DNA of 64,000 bases from Acidimicrobiia bacterium (GTDB lineage: Bacteria; Actinomycetota; Acidimicrobiia; IMCC26256; PALSA-610): positions 1-64,000 of the forward strand of contig DATBAK010000083.1 in the NCBI GenBank assembly GCA_036271555.1. The letters are read 5' to 3'. How positions within the stretch are numbered: position 1 is the stretch's first letter; each line of letters starts with the position of its first letter. This document shows positions 19,631 to 42,621 of the stretch, piece after piece. The translations under genes were made by a program, and so were the position numbers. The notes beneath the pieces are model-generated. The model saw nothing but the letters and a program-made list of their open reading frames with translations, was not told the origin of the DNA and did no database searches.

Positions 19631-20863
19631 TCAGCAGGGGCAGTCACCGATCGCGGGCGCGTCACCGAAGGGATCGACCCTCTCTTCGGCGAGCAGCACC
19701 CAGTACCCGTGTCCGGTCGTGGTGGCCGCGATCGCCGAACGCGCGGAGTCGCCCGACACGCTGCCGAGGTGAGAGCTACCTTCGAACGGCGCGCCGCCGA
19801 ACGAGAAGATGCCGCCGTCGGAAGCGAGCATCCAGTACCCGCCGTGGGGGGCGGCCGCGATCGCGACGGCCGGCGCGTTGAGCAGCACGGCACCCATCGA
19901 GCCGGCGAAGTGCGCGTCGCCGAACGCGAACACGCCACCGTCCGACGCGACCAACCAGTAACCACCGCCATCGGGCGTCGCGGCCATCCCGACCACCGGC
20001 GCGTTCAGATGCAACGCGCCGAGCGAACCGTGGAAGCCCGCGTCGCCGAACGCGAACACGCCACCGTCCGACGCGACGAGCCAGTAACCACCGCCGTCGG
20101 GCGTCGCGGCCATCCCGACCACCGGCGCGTTCAGATGCAACGCGCCGAGCGAACCGTGGAAGTGCGCGCTCCCGTACGCGAAGACGCCACCGTCGGACGC
20201 CGCGGTCCACACCCCGTTGCCGGTCGGCGCGGACGCGATCGCCACGATCGGCGCGTTCGACGGCGCCCCGACGATCGCCGTCGCGTCACCCTCGGAGGTG
20301 ATGACGCCCCGCTCGTCGACGGTGCGGAAGCCGTGGTCGTCAGGCGTCGGCGCGATCCCCACGTGGCTCGCCACGCGGACGGGGAACGACGCGAGCGACG
20401 AGCCCGGCCCGCCCCCGCACGTCGTCGGCGACTCGGGGAACGGCGTGATGTAGCCGGCGACGTCGATCGTGATCTTTCCGGGACCCGCCGGATCCGCACA
20501 GTGCAGGCCGCCCCAGCTCACCCCGACGAACGGTGCGACGCGACCGGGCGCGAACGAAACCGTCTGCGTCGCGGTGAGCGGGTCGTGCGCGATGTTCGTG
20601 TACGCCGCGCCCGTCGCGCTCACCGTCGTCGTGAACGTGACCGCGGTCGTGCACCGCTGTGCCTCGTTGTTCGGCAGCAGCTTGACCGTGTAATAGAGCG
20701 TCCCGGCCGCGCCCTGCTCGAAGGCGTCGCCGACTTGGAACGAGCAGCCGACAACCGGTCGCAACGCGGCCCCTGCGGGCATCGCGCCGAGCACGGCCGA
20801 CGCCGAGCATGCGAGTCCCGCGCTCAACAGAGCTGCACCGGCTCGTGCGGTCCAACGACGCAT
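19631..20863 (-). CDS. Secreted YWLVASDGG-repeat protein
   Basis: 410 residues with a Sec signal peptide (ending near AGA). The N-terminal domain (about 35-170) contains four Cys and looks beta-rich. The C-terminal half is made of tandem repeats of about 42 residues with the core GGYWLVASDGGVFAFGDA and HGSLGALHLNAPVVGMAAT, five or so copies, the middle ones almost identical. Repeats with this core are widespread in secreted proteins of Acidimicrobiia, where they may form beta-propeller-like folds. Function unknown. The DNA repeats are listed separately. Confidence 0.8.
   Translation of the reverse strand: MRRWTARAGAALLSAGLACSASAVLGAMPAGAALRPVVGCSFQVGDAFEQGAAGTLYYTVKLLPNNEAQRCTTAVTFTTTVSATGAAYTNIAHDPLTATQTVSFAPGRVAPFVGVSWGGLHCADPAGPGKITIDVAGYITPFPESPTTCGGGPGSSLASFPVRVASHVGIAPTPDDHGFRTVDERGVITSEGDATAIVGAPSNAPIVAIASAPTGNGVWTAASDGGVFAYGSAHFHGSLGALHLNAPVVGMAATPDGGGYWLVASDGGVFAFGDAGFHGSLGALHLNAPVVGMAATPDGGGYWLVASDGGVFAFGDAHFAGSMGAVLLNAPAVAIAAAPHGGYWMLASDGGIFSFGGAPFEGSSHLGSVSGDSARSAIAATTTGHGYWVLLAEERVDPFGDAPAIGDCPC
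19855..20232. repeat. Tandem 126-base repeats inside the YWLVASDGG-repeat gene
   Basis: The block beginning CGGCCATCCCGACCACCGGC recurs at 19981 and 20107, exactly 126 bases (42 codons) apart, with few differences over most of the unit; a more diverged copy precedes it from about 19855. The near identity suggests recent duplication or gene conversion. Confidence 0.8.
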
Positions 20864-26811: not shown

Positions 26812-27825
26812 ATGCCGCCGACCGCCCCGCCCGACCCGATCGCTCCCGAGGGTGTCGCGGCGCCGTCGGGCCGGTGGAAGGTGGTCGTGCGCATCCTCGT
26901 GAGCGCGATCGTGCTCACGATCCTCGTGCTGAAGACGCCGCACTTCGGCGACGTGCTCCCCCATCACGACCACGGGCGCACGGTGCTGCTGCTCACCGTG
27001 GCGCTGCTGCTGATCTTCTCGGGGATCGTGCTGCAGGCGTGGCGCTGGCAGCAGGTGCTGAACGCGTTCGGCCGTCACGTGGGCATCGTGCGCCTGACCG
27101 CGTACACGCTCGCGGGTCAGTTCGTCGGCAACGTGCTGCCCTCGACGATCGGCGGCGATGTCGTGCGCATCAGCCGCGTCGGCGCCACGATCGACTCGAC
27201 CGAGACCGCGTTCGCATCGGTCGCGATCGAGCGGCTCACGGGCTTCATCGCGCTGCCCGCGCTCGTGCTCGTCGGGTTCGTCGTGCACCCGTCGCTCTTC
27301 CACACGCGCCACGCGCCGCTCGCGCTCGTCATCGCCGCGGTGACGCTCGGCGCGCTCGGTCTCATCCTCGCGGCCGCCGCGCACCGCCGGCTCGCGGGCC
27401 GCTTCGCGGAGAACCAGAGCTGGACCCGCTTCATCGGCGCGGTACACGTCGGCGTCGATCGCTTGCGCCGCTATCCGCGCCAGGCGCTCGGTGTCATCGG
27501 CACGTCGTTCGCCTACCAGATCTCCGTGATCGTCGCGATCGTCTGCATCGTGCGGACGCTCGAGCTGCCGGTGCCGACCGGCGCGGTGATCGCGTTCGTG
27601 CCCGCGGTCGCGATGGCGCAAGCGGTGCCGATCTCGATCGGCGGGCTCGGGGTACGCGAGGGAATGCTCGTGCTGTTCCTGCACCCGTTCGGCGTTCGCA
27701 ACGCGCAGGCGATCGCGGTCGGACTGCTCTGGTACGCGGGCGTCCTCATCGTGAGCATGATCGGCGCGCCCGCGTTCGCGGTCGGCAAGCGCCGCCCGCC
27801 CGTCGTCGCGGGACGCGCCTCATGA
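26812..27825 (+). CDS. Lysylphosphatidylglycerol synthase transmembrane/flippase-like membrane protein (UPF0104)
   Basis: 337 residues with about eight membrane helices. Conserved family segments are AWRWQQVLNAFG, YTLAGQFVGNVLPSTIGGDVVRISRVG, AIERLTGFIALPALV and the C-terminal PISIGGLGVREGMLVLFL. The family covers MprF-like flippases and lipid or polyprenol-linked transporters (YbhN, AglD-like). It overlaps the PAP2 gene by four bases (ATGA), which suggests a joint role in membrane lipid or glycolipid handling. Confidence 0.85.
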   Translation: MPPTAPPDPIAPEGVAAPSGRWKVVVRILVSAIVLTILVLKTPHFGDVLPHHDHGRTVLLLTVALLLIFSGIVLQAWRWQQVLNAFGRHVGIVRLTAYTLAGQFVGNVLPSTIGGDVVRISRVGATIDSTETAFASVAIERLTGFIALPALVLVGFVVHPSLFHTRHAPLALVIAAVTLGALGLILAAAAHRRLAGRFAENQSWTRFIGAVHVGVDRLRRYPRQALGVIGTSFAYQISVIVAIVCIVRTLELPVPTGAVIAFVPAVAMAQAVPISIGGLGVREGMLVLFLHPFGVRNAQAIAVGLLWYAGVLIVSMIGAPAFAVGKRRPPVVAGRAS

Positions 27826-28616
27826 GCACCAGCACCGATACCGACGCGATCGCGCGACCGAAGCGCGGCGGCCGCCGGCTGAGCGACGGCGCGGTGATCT
27901 ACTGGTGGGTCGAAGTCCTGATGATCCTCGCGTTCTACTTCGTGTATTCCGCGATCCGGAACGCGAACAAGAGCGACCCATCGGAGGCGCTCCACAACGC
28001 GCGCACGATCATCGACTGGGAGCAGCACCTCTCGATCTTCCACGAGGCGCGGCTCGAGCACTGGGCGCTACACGCGAAGTGGCTCGTGATCGCGTGCAAC
28101 TACTACTACGGATCGTTGCACTTCGTCGTCACCATCGGTGTCGCCATCGTGCTGTTCCGCAAGTGGTCGGACGACTACCCGCGTTGGCGCAACACGCTCG
28201 GTGTGTCGACGGCCCTCGCGCTCGTCGGCTTCATCTCGTACCCGCTCATGCCGCCGCGCCTGCTCGGGCAGTTCGGGCTGTCGCACTACCACTTCGTCGA
28301 CACGCTCGACCGCTACCCCACGTTCTGGTCGTTCGACTCCGGCGCGGTGAGCAAGATCTCGAACCAGTTCGCGGCGATGCCGAGCGTGCACTGCTGCTGG
28401 GCGCTGTGGTGCGCGTGCGTGATGATCTCGCACGCGAAGAAGCCGATCGCGCGCGCCGCCGCCGCGCTGTATCCGGTTGCGACGGTCTCGGTGATCGTGC
28501 TCACCGCGAACCACTACTTCCTCGACGCAGTCGGCGGCTTCACGATCCTCGGCATCGGCTACGTCGTCGCGCAGCTCACGACGCGCGCGGGTCGGCGAGA
28601 ACGGGCGCCCGCATGA
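27822..28616 (+). CDS. PAP2-family integral membrane phosphatase/transferase
   Basis: 264 residues with about six helices. A PAP2 triad is visible: a central AAMPSVHCCWALW motif with the catalytic His region, and the distal NHYFLDAVGGF with the second His and Asp; WSFDSGAVSKISNQFAAMPS is typical of the inositol-phosphorylceramide-synthase-like (PAP2_3) group. It may dephosphorylate a lipid or transfer a headgroup. Its start overlaps the preceding gene (ATGA). Its own stop is again part of an ATGA, from which a chain of four micro-ORFs begins, and its last residues GRRERAPA recur at the end of the third micro-ORF. Confidence 0.85.
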   Translation: MSTSTDTDAIARPKRGGRRLSDGAVIYWWVEVLMILAFYFVYSAIRNANKSDPSEALHNARTIIDWEQHLSIFHEARLEHWALHAKWLVIACNYYYGSLHFVVTIGVAIVLFRKWSDDYPRWRNTLGVSTALALVGFISYPLMPPRLLGQFGLSHYHFVDTLDRYPTFWSFDSGAVSKISNQFAAMPSVHCCWALWCACVMISHAKKPIARAAAALYPVATVSVIVLTANHYFLDAVGGFTILGIGYVVAQLTTRAGRRERAPA

Positions 28617-28702
28617 GCAGCGAGGCGCAGACCAAGCGAGCGGAGGGTCCTGCGATCGACCCTCACCGTCCGGTTCGAGCGAGCGAGGTCGGAGCCGCAT
28701 GA
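28613..28702 (+). CDS. Micro-ORF 1 of the ATGA-linked array
   Basis: 29 residues, starting MSSEAQTKRAEGPAI and ending RASEVGAA. The ATG overlaps the PAP2 stop, and its TGA overlaps the start of micro-ORF 2. No known domain. Whether the peptide itself matters, or only ribosome passage, cannot be told from the sequence. Confidence 0.35.
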   Translation: MSSEAQTKRAEGPAIDPHRPVRASEVGAA

Positions 28703-28788
28703 GCAACGAGGCGCAGACCGAGCGAGCGGAGGGTCCTGCGATCGACCCTCACGGTCCGGTTCGAGCAAGCGAGGTCGGAGCCGCATGA
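28699..28788 (+). CDS. Micro-ORF 2 of the ATGA-linked array
   Basis: 29 residues, starting MSNEAQTERAEGPAI and ending RASEVGAA; differs from micro-ORF 1 at three or so positions. Linked on both sides by ATGA overlaps. Confidence 0.35.
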   Translation: MSNEAQTERAEGPAIDPHGPVRASEVGAA

Positions 28789-28871
28789 GCAACGAGGCGC
28801 AGACCGAGCGAGCGGAGGGTCCTGCGATCGACCCTCACGGTCCGGGTCGGCGAGAACGGGCACCCGCATGA
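28785..28871 (+). CDS. Micro-ORF 3 of the ATGA-linked array
   Basis: 28 residues. The first 20 match micro-ORF 2, but the end is GRRERAPA, identical to the C-terminus of the upstream PAP2 protein. The unit is 83 bases rather than 86, and the ATGA junction is still kept. Confidence 0.35.
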   Translation: MSNEAQTERAEGPAIDPHGPGRRERAPA

Positions 28872-28957
28872 GCAGCGAGGCGCAGACCGAGCGAGCGGAG
28901 GGTCGCGCGATCGACCCTCACGGTCCGGTTCGAGCAAGCCAGGTCGGAGCCGCATGA
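28868..28957 (+). CDS. Micro-ORF 4 of the ATGA-linked array
   Basis: 29 residues, starting MSSEAQTERAEGRAI and ending RASQVGAA. Its hairpin arm is one base pair longer than in the other copies (GAGGGTCG/CGACCCTC). Its TGA overlaps the ATG of the VOC gene, whose first six residues MSNEAQ repeat the micro-ORF start. Confidence 0.35.
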   Translation: MSSEAQTERAEGRAIDPHGPVRASQVGAA

Positions 28958-29718
28958 GCAACGAGGCGCAGATCGATCTCGATCACATCGCGATCGCGGC
29001 GGCCGACACCGCGCCCGGTCTGCGGTTCCTCACCGGCACCCTCGGCGGCACGGTGCTGTCGGGCGGCCAGGCGATCGGCTTCCGTCCGATGCAGGTGCTC
29101 GTCGGCGATCGCGACGGCGGCATGAAGGTCGAGCTGCTCGAACCGTGGGAGACCGAGCGCAACGACTTCCTCGCGCGCTTCGTCGCGCACACCGGCGCCG
29201 GACCGCACCACCTCACGTTCAAGGTGCCCGACTTCGACGACGCGCTCGACGCGGCGCGCGCCGCGGGCTTCACGCCGGTCGGGATCGACCGCTCCGACCC
29301 CCGCTGGCACGAAGCGTTCCTGCACCCCCGTGAAGCGCACGGCACCGTCGTGCAGCTCGCGCAGGCGAGCGACGCCGCGGACCGGGCCTCGTGGCTCGCC
29401 TACGTCGCGCAGCACGGGCCGTCGGGCGAGCCCATCTGGTGGGTCGACCCCGAGCCGCCGACCGAGGGCACCACGTACCTGCGGCGCGTCGTGCTCGGCG
29501 CGCCCGACCCTGCGGTCGTGCTGCCGCTCTACCGCGACCTGCTCGGCGGCGAGGTCGTCGCGAAGGACGACGGCGCGACCGAGCTCGCGTGGCCGGGTGG
29601 TGGACGCATCCGCGTCGAGACCCGCGCCGATCGCGCGCCCGGCGTCGACCGCCTCGAGGTCGAGGGGCTCGGCGCGCCGACCAACGTGCTCGGCACCTGG
29701 TTCACACCTTCGTCGTAG
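28954..29718 (+). CDS. VOC-superfamily protein (glyoxalase/methylmalonyl-CoA epimerase-like)
   Basis: 254 residues with two beta-alpha-beta-beta-beta modules. The first (LDHIAIAAAD, HHLTFKVPDFDDALDAARAAGF, HGTVVQL) keeps His and Glu positions typical of VOC metal sites and resembles methylmalonyl-CoA epimerase; the second (LRRVVLGAPDPAVVLPLYRDLLGGEV) is more degenerate. The substrate is unknown. The start at 28954 is fixed by the ATGA junction with micro-ORF 4. Its 3' end overlaps the convergent LysR gene by 17 bases. Confidence 0.8.
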   Translation: MSNEAQIDLDHIAIAAADTAPGLRFLTGTLGGTVLSGGQAIGFRPMQVLVGDRDGGMKVELLEPWETERNDFLARFVAHTGAGPHHLTFKVPDFDDALDAARAAGFTPVGIDRSDPRWHEAFLHPREAHGTVVQLAQASDAADRASWLAYVAQHGPSGEPIWWVDPEPPTEGTTYLRRVVLGAPDPAVVLPLYRDLLGGEVVAKDDGATELAWPGGGRIRVETRADRAPGVDRLEVEGLGAPTNVLGTWFTPSS

Positions 29719-30607
29719 CGCCTCGGCGCTGCGATCGCACGAGGCGGACGACCGCGTCGCGCACCGCGGCGTCGGCGAGCGAGAGTCGCACGCCGCGCGC
29801 GGTCACGAGCGCGAGCCGGCGCGGCGGCATGTCGGCGATCGCGACCGAGCGCATGCCGGGATCCCCCGGCGGCACCGCGGTCTCGGGGATGATCGACACG
29901 CCCGCGCCCGCGGCGACGAGGTCGCCGATGAGCCGCACGCCCTCGATCTCGATCGGGACCGACAACGTCAGGCCCTGATCGTGCGCCGCGCCCTCGACCT
30001 CGGAGCGCAGCGGGTTACCGAGCGGTGGCAGGATCATCGTGTGCGCGGCGAGCACCGCGAGCGGCACCGGCTCCTTGGCACCGAGATCGACCGAGTTCGG
30101 TACGAGCCCGACGAGGTCCTCGTCGAGCAGGTGCTCGACGACGAGCCGCGAGTCGCTCACCGGTTCGGTGACGACGGCCTGCGACAGCTCTCGTTCGGCC
30201 ACCTCACCCGCGAGCCGCTCCGACGCGCCTTCCGTCACGCGCAGCGAGAGCGCGGGCGCCTGCATGCGGAGGTCGGCGACGAGCGCGGGCACGAGCCACC
30301 GGCTGATCGTGCCGACCGCGCCGAACGTGGCGTGGCCGGTCTGCAGGCCCTGGAGCATCGAGAGGTCGGCGCGCAGGTCGTCGAGTTCGCGGCGCACGTG
30401 GCGGGCGCGCTCGAGCACGATCGTGCCGAACTCGGTGGGCACCGCGCCCCGGCGGCCCCGGCTGAAGAGGCTCACGCCGAGCTCGTCCTCGAGCTGGCGG
30501 ATCTGCTCGGACACGTTCGACTGGACCGTGTGCAGCTGATCGGCCGCGCCCGTGAACGATCCGGCGTCGGCCACGGCCTGCAGGGTCTCGAGATGGCGCA
30601 GCTCCAT
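29702..30607 (-). CDS. LysR-family transcriptional regulator
   Basis: 301 residues. The N-terminal winged helix-turn-helix MELRHLETLQAVADAGSFTGAADQLHTVQSNVSEQIRQLE (written here as the span of residues 1-40) is typical: residues 1-20 MELRHLETLQAVADAGSFTG precede the recognition helix around VQSNVSEQI. The effector domain follows (GAVGTISRWLVPALVADLR, DLVAAGAGVSIIPE). The target is not evident, but it is divergent from whiB and convergent with the VOC gene. A palindrome at 30668-30682 in its own upstream region is a candidate operator. Confidence 0.93.
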   Translation of the reverse strand: MELRHLETLQAVADAGSFTGAADQLHTVQSNVSEQIRQLEDELGVSLFSRGRRGAVPTEFGTIVLERARHVRRELDDLRADLSMLQGLQTGHATFGAVGTISRWLVPALVADLRMQAPALSLRVTEGASERLAGEVAERELSQAVVTEPVSDSRLVVEHLLDEDLVGLVPNSVDLGAKEPVPLAVLAAHTMILPPLGNPLRSEVEGAAHDQGLTLSVPIEIEGVRLIGDLVAAGAGVSIIPETAVPPGDPGMRSVAIADMPPRRLALVTARGVRLSLADAAVRDAVVRLVRSQRRGATTKV

Positions 30608-40908: not shown

Positions 40909-41237
40909 GCGACGTCCTCGCCGGGCACGACGAGCAGCACGTCGTCGCCCTCGACGCGCACCTCGTACACCGGAACCGCGCGCGTCGCCGGCAGCGTCTG
41001 CGGCTCACCGTCGAGCAACGAGAACGTCGAGCCGTGCTTCGGGCACTCGAGCTCGCGCTCGTCGCTCCACACGTCGCCTTCCGAGAGCGACTCGTCGGCG
41101 TGCGAGCAGCGGTCGGCGATCGCGTACCAGTCGTCGCCGATGCGCACGACCGCGATGCGCAGCCCGGCGACGTCGACGCGCGTCGCGGAATCGGGCTTCA
41201 AGTCGTTCACCCCGAGCAAGCGCATCACGTCGCTCAC
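40905..41237 (-). CDS. Rieske 2Fe-2S ferredoxin-like protein of the suf operon
   Basis: 110 residues. The Rieske motifs CSHADESL (C-x-H) and CPKHGSTFSL (C-x2-H) bind a 2Fe-2S cluster, and the domain resembles ferredoxin subunits of non-heme iron oxygenases. GTG at 41237 has GGAG seven bases upstream and was preferred over a GTG at 41276. A Rieske gene between sufD and sufC is a recurrent actinobacterial arrangement; it may supply electrons or take part in cluster transfer, which is not proven. Confidence 0.88.
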   Translation of the reverse strand: MSDVMRLLGVNDLKPDSATRVDVAGLRIAVVRIGDDWYAIADRCSHADESLSEGDVWSDERELECPKHGSTFSLLDGEPQTLPATRAVPVYEVRVEGDDVLLVVPGEDVA

Positions 41238-41319
41238 GATGCGGCTCCGATCTTCGGCGCTCGAAGCGGACGGCACAGCGTCGTCCCGAGGCCGACCGCG
41301 CCTTCGGTCTGCGCCCGGC

Positions 41320-42621
41320 TCACGCGCGCGCCCTCCGGTGCTCGATCTTGTCGACGATCGCGCGGCGTAGCGACGCGGTGAGCGCGTGCAGCGGCAGGCG
41401 GTCGAGCACGTCGTCGAAGAAGCCGAGCACGATGAGCCGTTCGGCCTCCTCGGGCGGCACGCCGCGGCTCTCGAGGTAGTAGCGCTGGTCGGCGTCGATC
41501 GAGCCGACGGCGGACGCGTGCGAGCACTTCACGTCGTTGTTGAGGATCTCGAGATTCGGGATCGACTCCGCGCCCGCGCCTTCGGTCAGCACGAGGTTGC
41601 GGTTCGTCTGGTACGCCTCGGTCTTGCGCGCGTCCTCGCCGATCCGGATGAAGCCCGAGTACACCGAACGCGCCTCGTCCTCGACCGCGCCCTTGAACAG
41701 CAGGTTGCTGCGCGTGCTCGGCGCGGTGTGCTCCTGCAGGGTGCGGAAGTCGAGCATCTGCTTGCCGTCGCCGAAGTAGACGGCGAGGAGGTCGCTCTCG
41801 GCGCCGCTCCCCGCGAGCACCGACTCGCTGCGCAGGCGCGCGTAGTCGCCGCCGAGCGCGATCGCGGCGGAGCTGAGCGTCGCGTCGGCGCCGAGGTGTG
41901 CGCGTTGCGTCGCGATGCTCCACGTGCGCGCGCCGTGCTGCTGCACCGAGAGGTAGCCGACGCGCGCGGCGTCGCCGACCAGGAGCTCGACCGCGCCGAC
42001 GACGAGATGCGACGTCGCGGGCGAGCCGGTGCGCTCGAGGACCGTGACCTCGCTGTTCTCACCGGCGATCACGAGCGTGTGCGGGAAGCTCGCCTGACCG
42101 TCGCCCTCGCACCAGTGCAAGACGACGATCGGGTGCGGCACGACGACGTTGCGGGGCACCACGACGACCGCGGCGCCCGCGAGGAACGCGTCGTGCAGCA
42201 CCGTGAACGCGTCCTCGGACTCCGACGTCGCGGAGCCGAGGTGCGCGCGCACCTCGTCGTCGATCCCGCAGGTCGCGAGCTCGCAGACGCGCACGCCCTT
42301 CGCCTCGACGTCGGCGTCGAGCTCGCGGTGCACGACCCGGCCGTCGCGCACGACGACCATCCCCGAGACCGTGCCGACCTCCGCCGCCCACGGTCCTCCA
42401 CCCGGCGCGCGCTCGGCGCCGACGGGTCCGATCTCGTCGGAGGTGAACGGCCGGTAGCGGTCGAGGTCGAACTCGTCGACCCGGCTGTAGCGCCAGATCT
42501 CCTCGGCCGGTGTCGGCCACGTGATGTCGGCGAGGCGCTCGGCCGCCTGCACGCGTCGCTCGACGAGCCAGTCGGGCCCGCCGAGGGCGCGCGCGGCGTC
42601 GGGACTGAACGCGGCGGTCAT
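41320..42621 (-). CDS. sufD: Fe-S cluster assembly protein SufD
   Basis: 433 residues. The helical N-terminus (EIWRYSRVDEFDLDRYRPF) leads into the right-handed beta-helix and the conserved C-terminal block KTEAYQTNRNLVLTEGA, PNLEILNNDVKCSHASAVGSID and YYLESRGVPPEEAERLIVLGF, which contains the Cys and His used at the SufB-SufD interface. Its length is normal. It follows sufB by 19 bases. Confidence 0.95.
   Translation of the reverse strand: MTAAFSPDAARALGGPDWLVERRVQAAERLADITWPTPAEEIWRYSRVDEFDLDRYRPFTSDEIGPVGAERAPGGGPWAAEVGTVSGMVVVRDGRVVHRELDADVEAKGVRVCELATCGIDDEVRAHLGSATSESEDAFTVLHDAFLAGAAVVVVPRNVVVPHPIVVLHWCEGDGQASFPHTLVIAGENSEVTVLERTGSPATSHLVVGAVELLVGDAARVGYLSVQQHGARTWSIATQRAHLGADATLSSAAIALGGDYARLRSESVLAGSGAESDLLAVYFGDGKQMLDFRTLQEHTAPSTRSNLLFKGAVEDEARSVYSGFIRIGEDARKTEAYQTNRNLVLTEGAGAESIPNLEILNNDVKCSHASAVGSIDADQRYYLESRGVPPEEAERLIVLGFFDDVLDRLPLHALTASLRRAIVDKIEHRRARA

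Follow-up and report, generated by a model that had tools for sequence, protein, structure and literature searches.

Our target is an array of short tandem repeats in the genome of an Acidimicrobiia bacterium (labelled G000 in our comparisons). It lies within a stretch of 64,000 nucleotides that was analysed as a whole and that we call the window. Three genes on one strand, encoding a membrane protein, a PAP2 protein and a glyoxalase-type VOC protein, form the setting of the array, which occupies the space between the second and the third (Table 1). Its repeat units are four in number and measure 86, 86, 83 and 86 bp; each holds a micro-ORF (29, 29, 28 and 29 amino acids) whose TGA overlaps the next ATG as ATGA. 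The sequence and the list of open reading frames agree with an earlier note on this DNA as to the lengths, joints and positions of the units; the micro-ORF of unit 1 was read from its own ATG, the list showing only a longer ORF that contains it. Tandem Repeats Finder describes the array with a period of 86, 4.3 copies, 89% matches and a score of 603. With up to 3 mismatches allowed, a 30-base core was counted 4 times in the window, and 100 shuffles gave a mean of 0.00, so the array repeat is not a product of chance.

Table 1. Features at the array and a further copy of the repeat within the window
Feature	Position	Strand	Details
LPG_synthase_TM membrane protein gene, first of the trio	26812..27825	+	Pfam PF03706, E 3.5e-39
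PAP2 gene	27822..28616	+	Pfam PF14378, E 9.7e-47; its stop, TGA at 28614-28616, forms the 5' junction with the array
PAP2 3' end, copied in the tail of unit 3	28588..28612	+	25 bases, one mismatch against 28843-28867
Unit 1, 86 bp	28613..28698	+	micro-ORF 28613-28702; arms within 28623-28698; family-model match 67.2 bits
Unit 2, 86 bp	28699..28784	+	micro-ORF 28699-28788; arms within 28709-28784; family-model match 65.3 bits
Unit 3, 83 bp	28785..28867	+	micro-ORF 28785-28871; 3' arm replaced by the PAP2-end copy 28843-28867; 41.9 bits
Unit 4, 86 bp	28868..28953	+	micro-ORF 28868-28957; arms within 28878-28953; family-model match 62.4 bits
Putative partial fifth unit	28954..28972	+	first 19 bases of the VOC gene, as at the start of units 2 and 3
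VOC (glyoxalase-type) gene, 3' of the array	28954..29718	+	Pfam PF13669, E 3.3e-10; PF00903, E 2e-9
Further single copy (L039)	41235-41326	-	between two codirectional ORFs; relay length 86, ends at GTGA

The tail of unit 3 was thought to copy the end of the PAP2 gene, and the match of 25 bases with a single mismatch bears this out and shows that local duplication helped to shape the array. The VOC gene was likewise said to share the start of the unit (MSNEAQ), and its first 19 bases are indeed identical to those of units 2 and 3; we believe that these bases are better read as a partial fifth unit that runs into the VOC gene. The GAGGGTC/GACCCTC hairpin ascribed to every unit is present in the predicted folds of units 1, 2 and 4 (unit 3 was left out). 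It sits in the variable centre of the unit and is not conserved among the dispersed copies described below, so we regard it as local to this array and have rejected it as a feature of the family. Elsewhere in the window, at 19789-20258, a strong tandem repeat (score 528) runs through about 3 copies with a period of 126 bp; this is a whole number of codons, and the stretch possibly encodes a repeat protein.

The unit is found at many other places in the same genome. Utilizing the 349-bp array as the query, we obtained at least 32 matches in G000 among the best 40 of 103 candidates scored. A search model built from sequence only, out of an alignment of 32 copies, gave at least 65 matches at E ≤ 0.01 among the best 150 of 21891 candidates scored, the weakest of them being partial copies; with arrays merged these amount to at least 57 places in G000, or, stated cautiously, no fewer than 50. 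Most places hold one copy, and the arrays contain 4, 4 (one partial), 2 and 2 copies. The typical copy consists of a 5' box, ATGAGCAGCCAGGCGCAGACCGCAGGCGCGGTC, a variable centre of about 30 bases and a 3' box, GATCGAGCGCCGGAGGTCGGAGCCGC, followed by ATGA. That the array unit is a real dispersed gene-junction repeat is well supported. Individual copies depart from this plan in several ways. The further copy in the window has ATC in place of the final ATG, with the start 3 bases further on at GTGA and the relay frame (defined below) intact; by eye, its neighbours are SufD-like upstream and Rieske ferredoxin-like downstream. Three copies (L054, L055 and L056) carry an additional GC-rich insert of about 12 bases within the 3' arm, and L054 keeps the relay frame at 101 bp. 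At L071 the element ends in part of a second unit, and this part is continuous with the beginning of the downstream gene, which suggests that the repeat may donate N-terminal residues, apparently also to the VOC protein (MSNEAQ).

The dispersed copies bear on the simplest account of the array, in which the VOC start region was duplicated in tandem on the spot and nothing of wider meaning is involved. The 19 bases that the VOC gene shares with the unit start and the copy of the PAP2 end in unit 3 are what such an account would draw on. The same unit, however, precedes unrelated genes at dozens of other places, which contradicts the proposal of the earlier note that a duplicated VOC start was the origin of the array, and the unit is absent from all 11 relatives' LPG-PAP2-VOC loci examined, each with the trio on one strand. 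We therefore give this account hardly any credence.

The placement analysis covered 53 copies in G000, tested in the orientation of the element itself, with 12 copies over the mismatch limit excluded. Unit 3 stands outside the counts of placement and length, and outside the alignment of arms, having lost its 3' arm; with a length of 83 it is in frame. Taking away 6 inner array units and 1 spurious row leaves 46 copies whose 3' end could be related to a gene. In 42 of these the closing start codon meets an ORF of at least 100 codons, 39 of them exactly and 3 within 1-3 bases; 2 more run through an 8-codon ORF that ends in ATGA, and 2 are without a clear gene. On the other side, an upstream ORF of at least 100 codons ends between -30 and +10 bases from the 5' arm in 44 of the 53 copies, and its end is most often the TGA of the element's first ATGA or GTGA. 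The flanking ORFs are recognizable genes, since Pfam matches at E ≤ 1e-8 were obtained for 12/12 downstream and 7/8 upstream ORFs tested. By Pfam name the flanking genes include IlvB, IlvN, CcmB, CcmC, NuoC, NuoD, MurG, Era and transaldolase, among others, and the flanking pairs also include a class-V aminotransferase behind an ABC ATPase. The single upstream ORF without a Pfam match adjoins MurG on its 5' side, and from its place and sequence we take it to be FtsW.

Because each micro-ORF must begin at one ATG and end at the TGA overlapping the next, the distance from start to start has to leave a remainder of 2 when divided by 3, and we refer to this as the relay frame. The start-to-start lengths extend from 53 to 101 with a mode of 86. 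A remainder of 2 is found for 58 of 65 copies and, in a set enlarged by further loci, for 63 of 72, so that 9 of 72 break the relay frame (copies over the mismatch limits, 10 in the 65-copy set and 9 in the 72-copy set, were excluded). The lengths that keep the frame are 53, 71, 77, 80, 83, 86, 89 and 101, and of 77 located copies 12 are missing one of the two codons. When copies of the modal length are set aside, the frame is kept by 9 of 13 copies from G000 and by 10 of 15 from its relatives, where 1/3 would be expected (P 0.009 each; 2e-4 pooled), although these P values, like all others given here, overstate independence because the copies are related. Internal stop codons are also missing: the 63 in-frame copies have 0, and the other two frames of the centre would lead one to expect 6.3. 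Within the centre itself the relay frame has 0 stops in 709 codons and the other frames have 12 in 1358 (5 and 7 respectively), a modest difference (Fisher P 0.011). Base composition predicts 14.6 internal stops (P 4e-7), a comparison that is too favourable, since the other two frames are likewise poorer in stops than their composition would have them.

The frame appears to be kept in ways that are indifferent to the amino acids encoded. In nine copies (L009, L031, L042, L047, L079, L080, L081, L180 and L183) the 5' arm is read in a different frame, and yet, through compensating indels, the total length is in frame and the correct TGA is reached. Next to L080 and L081 there are two truncated relics which, read by hand, still run from an ATG to the next ATGA. 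The GC content of the centre by codon position is 0.77/0.62/0.65, compared with a GC3 of 0.93-0.94 in three neighbouring genes. Five orthologous pairs of copies were compared. In 3 of them both members are in frame, with changes of 0 or 3 bases between them, and two have a frame-broken member (L179, of 82, against L173, of 83; and L176, of 87 or 96, against L178, of 89 or 98). The lengths and the lack of stops are thus conserved and the centre varies without a coding-type GC3, from which we conclude that the relay frame is mostly kept and the peptide is not. A functional 29-residue peptide made from the micro-ORFs and amplified by the tandem copies, the small-peptide factory of the earlier note, is accordingly very improbable. 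Its appeal lies in an open frame in 63/63 in-frame copies and in the start MSxxAQT..GAV and the end RAPEVGAA, or similar, that most copies share. These shared ends are explained by the conservation of the DNA arms, whereas the middle third differs between copies, its GC by codon position is not that of a gene, and the nine copies listed above put the 5' arm in another frame altogether.

The conservation of the arms follows a pattern of pairing. We aligned 77 copies from eight genomes (alignment A2), after dropping one spurious entry, L049:222-274, from 78 copies with located arms. The 5' and 3' boxes form three helices in which 94.7% of the cells are paired, and 8 of 12 pairs have changed on both sides. 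There are 46 compensated cells, against 8.8 +/- 2.5 in shuffles and no more than 15 in slid versions of the alignment. As an example, GGCGC/GCGCC is found in G000 and GGCCC/GGGCC mostly in relatives of another genus. On the mRNA strand G.U cells number 24 and A.C cells 10 (13 and 6 distinct combinations of pair and type), a weak sign that RNA is the selected form. Judged from the sequences, the paired ends could be either a hairpin in the mRNA or the inverted ends of a mobile DNA element. A local hairpin within the 5' arm was considered in place of the long pairing; 81.4% of its cells are paired and its covariation score exceeds that of all 500 shuffles. It was rejected, its both-side changes and pair types being no better than in shuffles (469 and 427 of 500).

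If the selected form were RNA, the element could act as a regulatory hairpin in which the 5' arm keeps the ribosome site of the 3' arm masked until translation of the micro-ORF takes place, and so sets how strongly the downstream gene is coupled. The compensated pairing, the excess of G.U over A.C and the slow change of the 3' arm would all suit such a device. When the five orthologous pairs are compared, the 3' arm, which includes the ribosome site, proves the slowest to change (3/110 sites), as a ribosome site should be; the centre changed at 22/138 sites, the 5' arm at 10/104 and the upstream gene at 56/736, so that the 5' arm is not slower than the neighbouring gene, contrary to what a masking arm would suggest. 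In this comparison the value for the downstream flank is inflated by the second copy in L074. A mobile DNA element would have inverted ends just as readily, and Rfam gave 0 matches at E ≤ 1 in 27500-29800, the array region. The computed folds of 52 copies predict no masking, and masking by the 5' arm was rejected on these grounds: in the full element the ribosome site is predicted to be unpaired to a share of 0.40, and this value becomes 0.44 when the 5' arm is blocked and 0.41 when that arm is shuffled; the site was more open than in the full element in 30/52 copies when the arm was blocked and in 25/52 when it was shuffled. We consider a regulatory hairpin of this kind to be rather unlikely.

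In a draw of relatives, which listed no genome of the same genus, 9 of 61 genomes had a match to the family model at 1e-5, as did 9 of 58 genomes of the order at 1e-6, G000 being included in both. At 1e-6 there were 58 matches in G000, 12 in G008, 8 in G007, 7 in G013, 3 in G011 and one each in G001, G004, G036 and G049; the single copies in G036 and G049, which are outside the family and on draft contigs of less than 6 kb, may be contamination. In a draw of 396 genomes of the phylum, made without family relatives, the exact pattern matched only in G000 and was absent from the other 395. A contig collection held 16 stretches with the exact pattern, 15 of them from the MAGs RYN_51, RYN_52, BP_119 and BP_122, which are labelled only Actinomycetes or Actinomycetota. 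The remaining stretch, on a Hydrogenophilales contig, was taken as chance and by eye resembles the end of a coding sequence. No mycobacterium was found by name among the contig matches of this exact pattern, distant kinship being outside its reach. Copy number was compared among relatives, as the earlier note had proposed, and does differ: orthologous loci of G008 and G013, which belong to one genus, include a pair with 1 copy against 2 (L072/L074), and show small indels as well. The genomes are multi-contig drafts, because of which the copy number of an array may be wrong.

A rival reading is a selfish palindromic repeat of the MITE or REP type that survives at stop/start junctions because in other places it would break genes or uncouple operons, with the relay frame as a by-product of filtering and no benefit to the host. 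REP and BIME palindromic repeats are mobilised by RAYT (Y1) transposases, are extragenic and are not known to be tied to start codons. Our element resembles them in being dispersed and an imperfect palindrome, and the inverted ends, the truncated or differing copies at orthologous loci and the copies with a broken frame are all as a selfish repeat would have them. It differs from the REP/RAYT system in that a search for mobilisers of the Y1 type (PF01797) gave 0 matches in G000, which speaks against mobilisation of that kind; among 14 family genomes only G002, itself without a match to the element, has a Y1 transposase. Against a purely selfish repeat, 44 of the 46 copies in G000 lead into an ORF of the same orientation, directly or through the 8 codons, which suggests targeting besides filtering. 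A purely selfish repeat is in our opinion possible and on the doubtful side. Our confidence in it overlaps with that in a relay, because the two are compatible and differ in who benefits.

Relatives without the element show what the junctions look like when it is absent. For ccmB-ccmC, where G000 has the element, all 12 family relatives examined have a bare 4-base overlap. For nuoC-nuoD the element was found in 0 of 11 relatives examined, and an ATGA lies at the nuoC stop in all 11; the nuoD start is assigned to it in 7. In 3 of the other 4 the frame beginning at that ATG is by eye open, and in the fourth (L204) it ends after five codons. For ilvB-ilvN, of the 52 genomes with a match we took 30 loci, G000 included; the element is in 0 of the 29 relatives' loci, and 6 of 11 family relatives have the bare 4-base overlap. 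For ftsW-murG, where G000 has two units, the element is in 0 of 28 readable relatives' loci (a mislocated row, L151, was left out to give 28, and L135 has no assigned upstream stop), and 6 of 8 family relatives have the bare overlap. Finally, for PAP2-VOC the bare ATGA overlap is present in 2 of the 11 relatives (L161 and L163), and there is a gap in the others. Insertion at the TGA of a stop/start overlap would be the simplest reading of these element-free sites.

A different dispersed palindromic repeat, with a core near GTGCTCGGACGAGCGGGACGGCGGAGCGGAGTCGACC, was encountered in other families of the order (L189-L200, in G014, G041, G050, G055 and G057). It was found in 5 of 6 genomes searched and was not found in G000. 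Several of its copies begin at or near a stop codon, and it is present at ilvB-ilvN in G014 and G055. Of 12 loci inspected none ends at a start codon except the ilvN copy of G014, which served as the query. We have taken it for another kind of repeat and rejected it as a member of the same family, since it ends away from start codons.

The elements to which our repeat can be compared most closely are the mycobacterial interspersed repetitive units (MIRUs), reportedly described by Supply et al. in 1997. MIRUs are used as strain-typing markers. MIRUs are not known to have dyad symmetry, and the covarying inverted ends of the repeat in G000 set it apart from them, a difference that may not be defining. 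According to a 2025 review, MIRUs appear mobile, insert at start codons and have an internal ORF coupled to the gene at -4 nt, a coupling that likely limits the effect of the insertion on the gene (PMC12548453). A class I unit measures 77 nt (PMC4128351), a length that is also 2 mod 3, and copy number varies (PMC3635867). The repeat in G000 is likewise short, dispersed, partly tandem and variable in copy number, and it too lies at the start codon in the orientation of the gene, which its internal ORF overlaps by 4 nt. The earlier note knew of no described system of this form; MIRUs, however, had been described with the same architecture (PMC12548453). The host group, as far as we have searched, is not mycobacterial. 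We call the repeat MIRU-like and not a MIRU, because the likeness is one of architecture alone and because the paired ends are a feature that MIRUs are not known to have; in this sense, and not by kinship of sequence, we would call it a MIRU-like element outside mycobacteria. In our searches of the open literature in PMC we found no MIRU-like family outside mycobacteria. Coupling by termination and reinitiation at ATGA overlaps is known (PMC12548453). The joints of the array have the same 4-base stop/start overlap, and they differ from known cases in that a repeat, in series, would take the place of the second protein gene in the coupling.

Our preferred reading, to which we assign a probability of roughly 0.7, is that a dispersed MIRU-like repeat, about 86 bp long, stands here four times in tandem and that its micro-ORFs relay ribosomes from the PAP2 gene to the VOC gene. 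Copies of the repeat would have inserted at the TGA where a stop and a start codon overlap by 4 bases, each of them supplying a ribosome site as well as the A of the new ATGA. The array would then have grown by tandem duplication, with units 3 and 4 probably joined through a copy of the junction between the PAP2 end and unit 1. Ribosomes translating PAP2 would stop at its TGA, which the ATG of unit 1 overlaps; the same ribosome, or a new one recruited by the ribosome site of the unit, would restart at unit 1, and the cycle of stopping and restarting would be repeated through units 2, 3 and 4 until the VOC gene is reached. Selection would presumably act on translation of the downstream gene and not on the peptide. 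A relay towards VOC was among the proposals of the earlier note, and what speaks for it is the placement at junctions, the frame kept in 63/72 copies, the lack of internal stops and the bare overlaps in relatives; that the micro-ORFs are translated we infer.

It is conceivable, though we hold it tentatively and would sooner bet against it, that the family represents a second class of relay element, independent of MIRUs, which is palindromic-ended and mobile, targets the TGA of 4-base overlaps in core operons and is selected for its relay frame alone, and whose arrays set the dose of the downstream protein. If this were true, a ribosome would terminate and restart as many as five times in succession between two genes. 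For MIRUs, a role of the internal ORF as a ribosome relay is described only as likely (PMC12548453). The repeat family described here has dozens of copies, orthologous pairs and, in another lineage, element-free sites, and in it the reading frame and not the peptide seems to be what is kept. It would therefore offer a test case for how a repeat can lie inside core gene pairs, including those of respiratory complex I, the cell wall, branched-chain amino acids and cytochrome maturation, without uncoupling them, and for whether termination and reinitiation can be chained.
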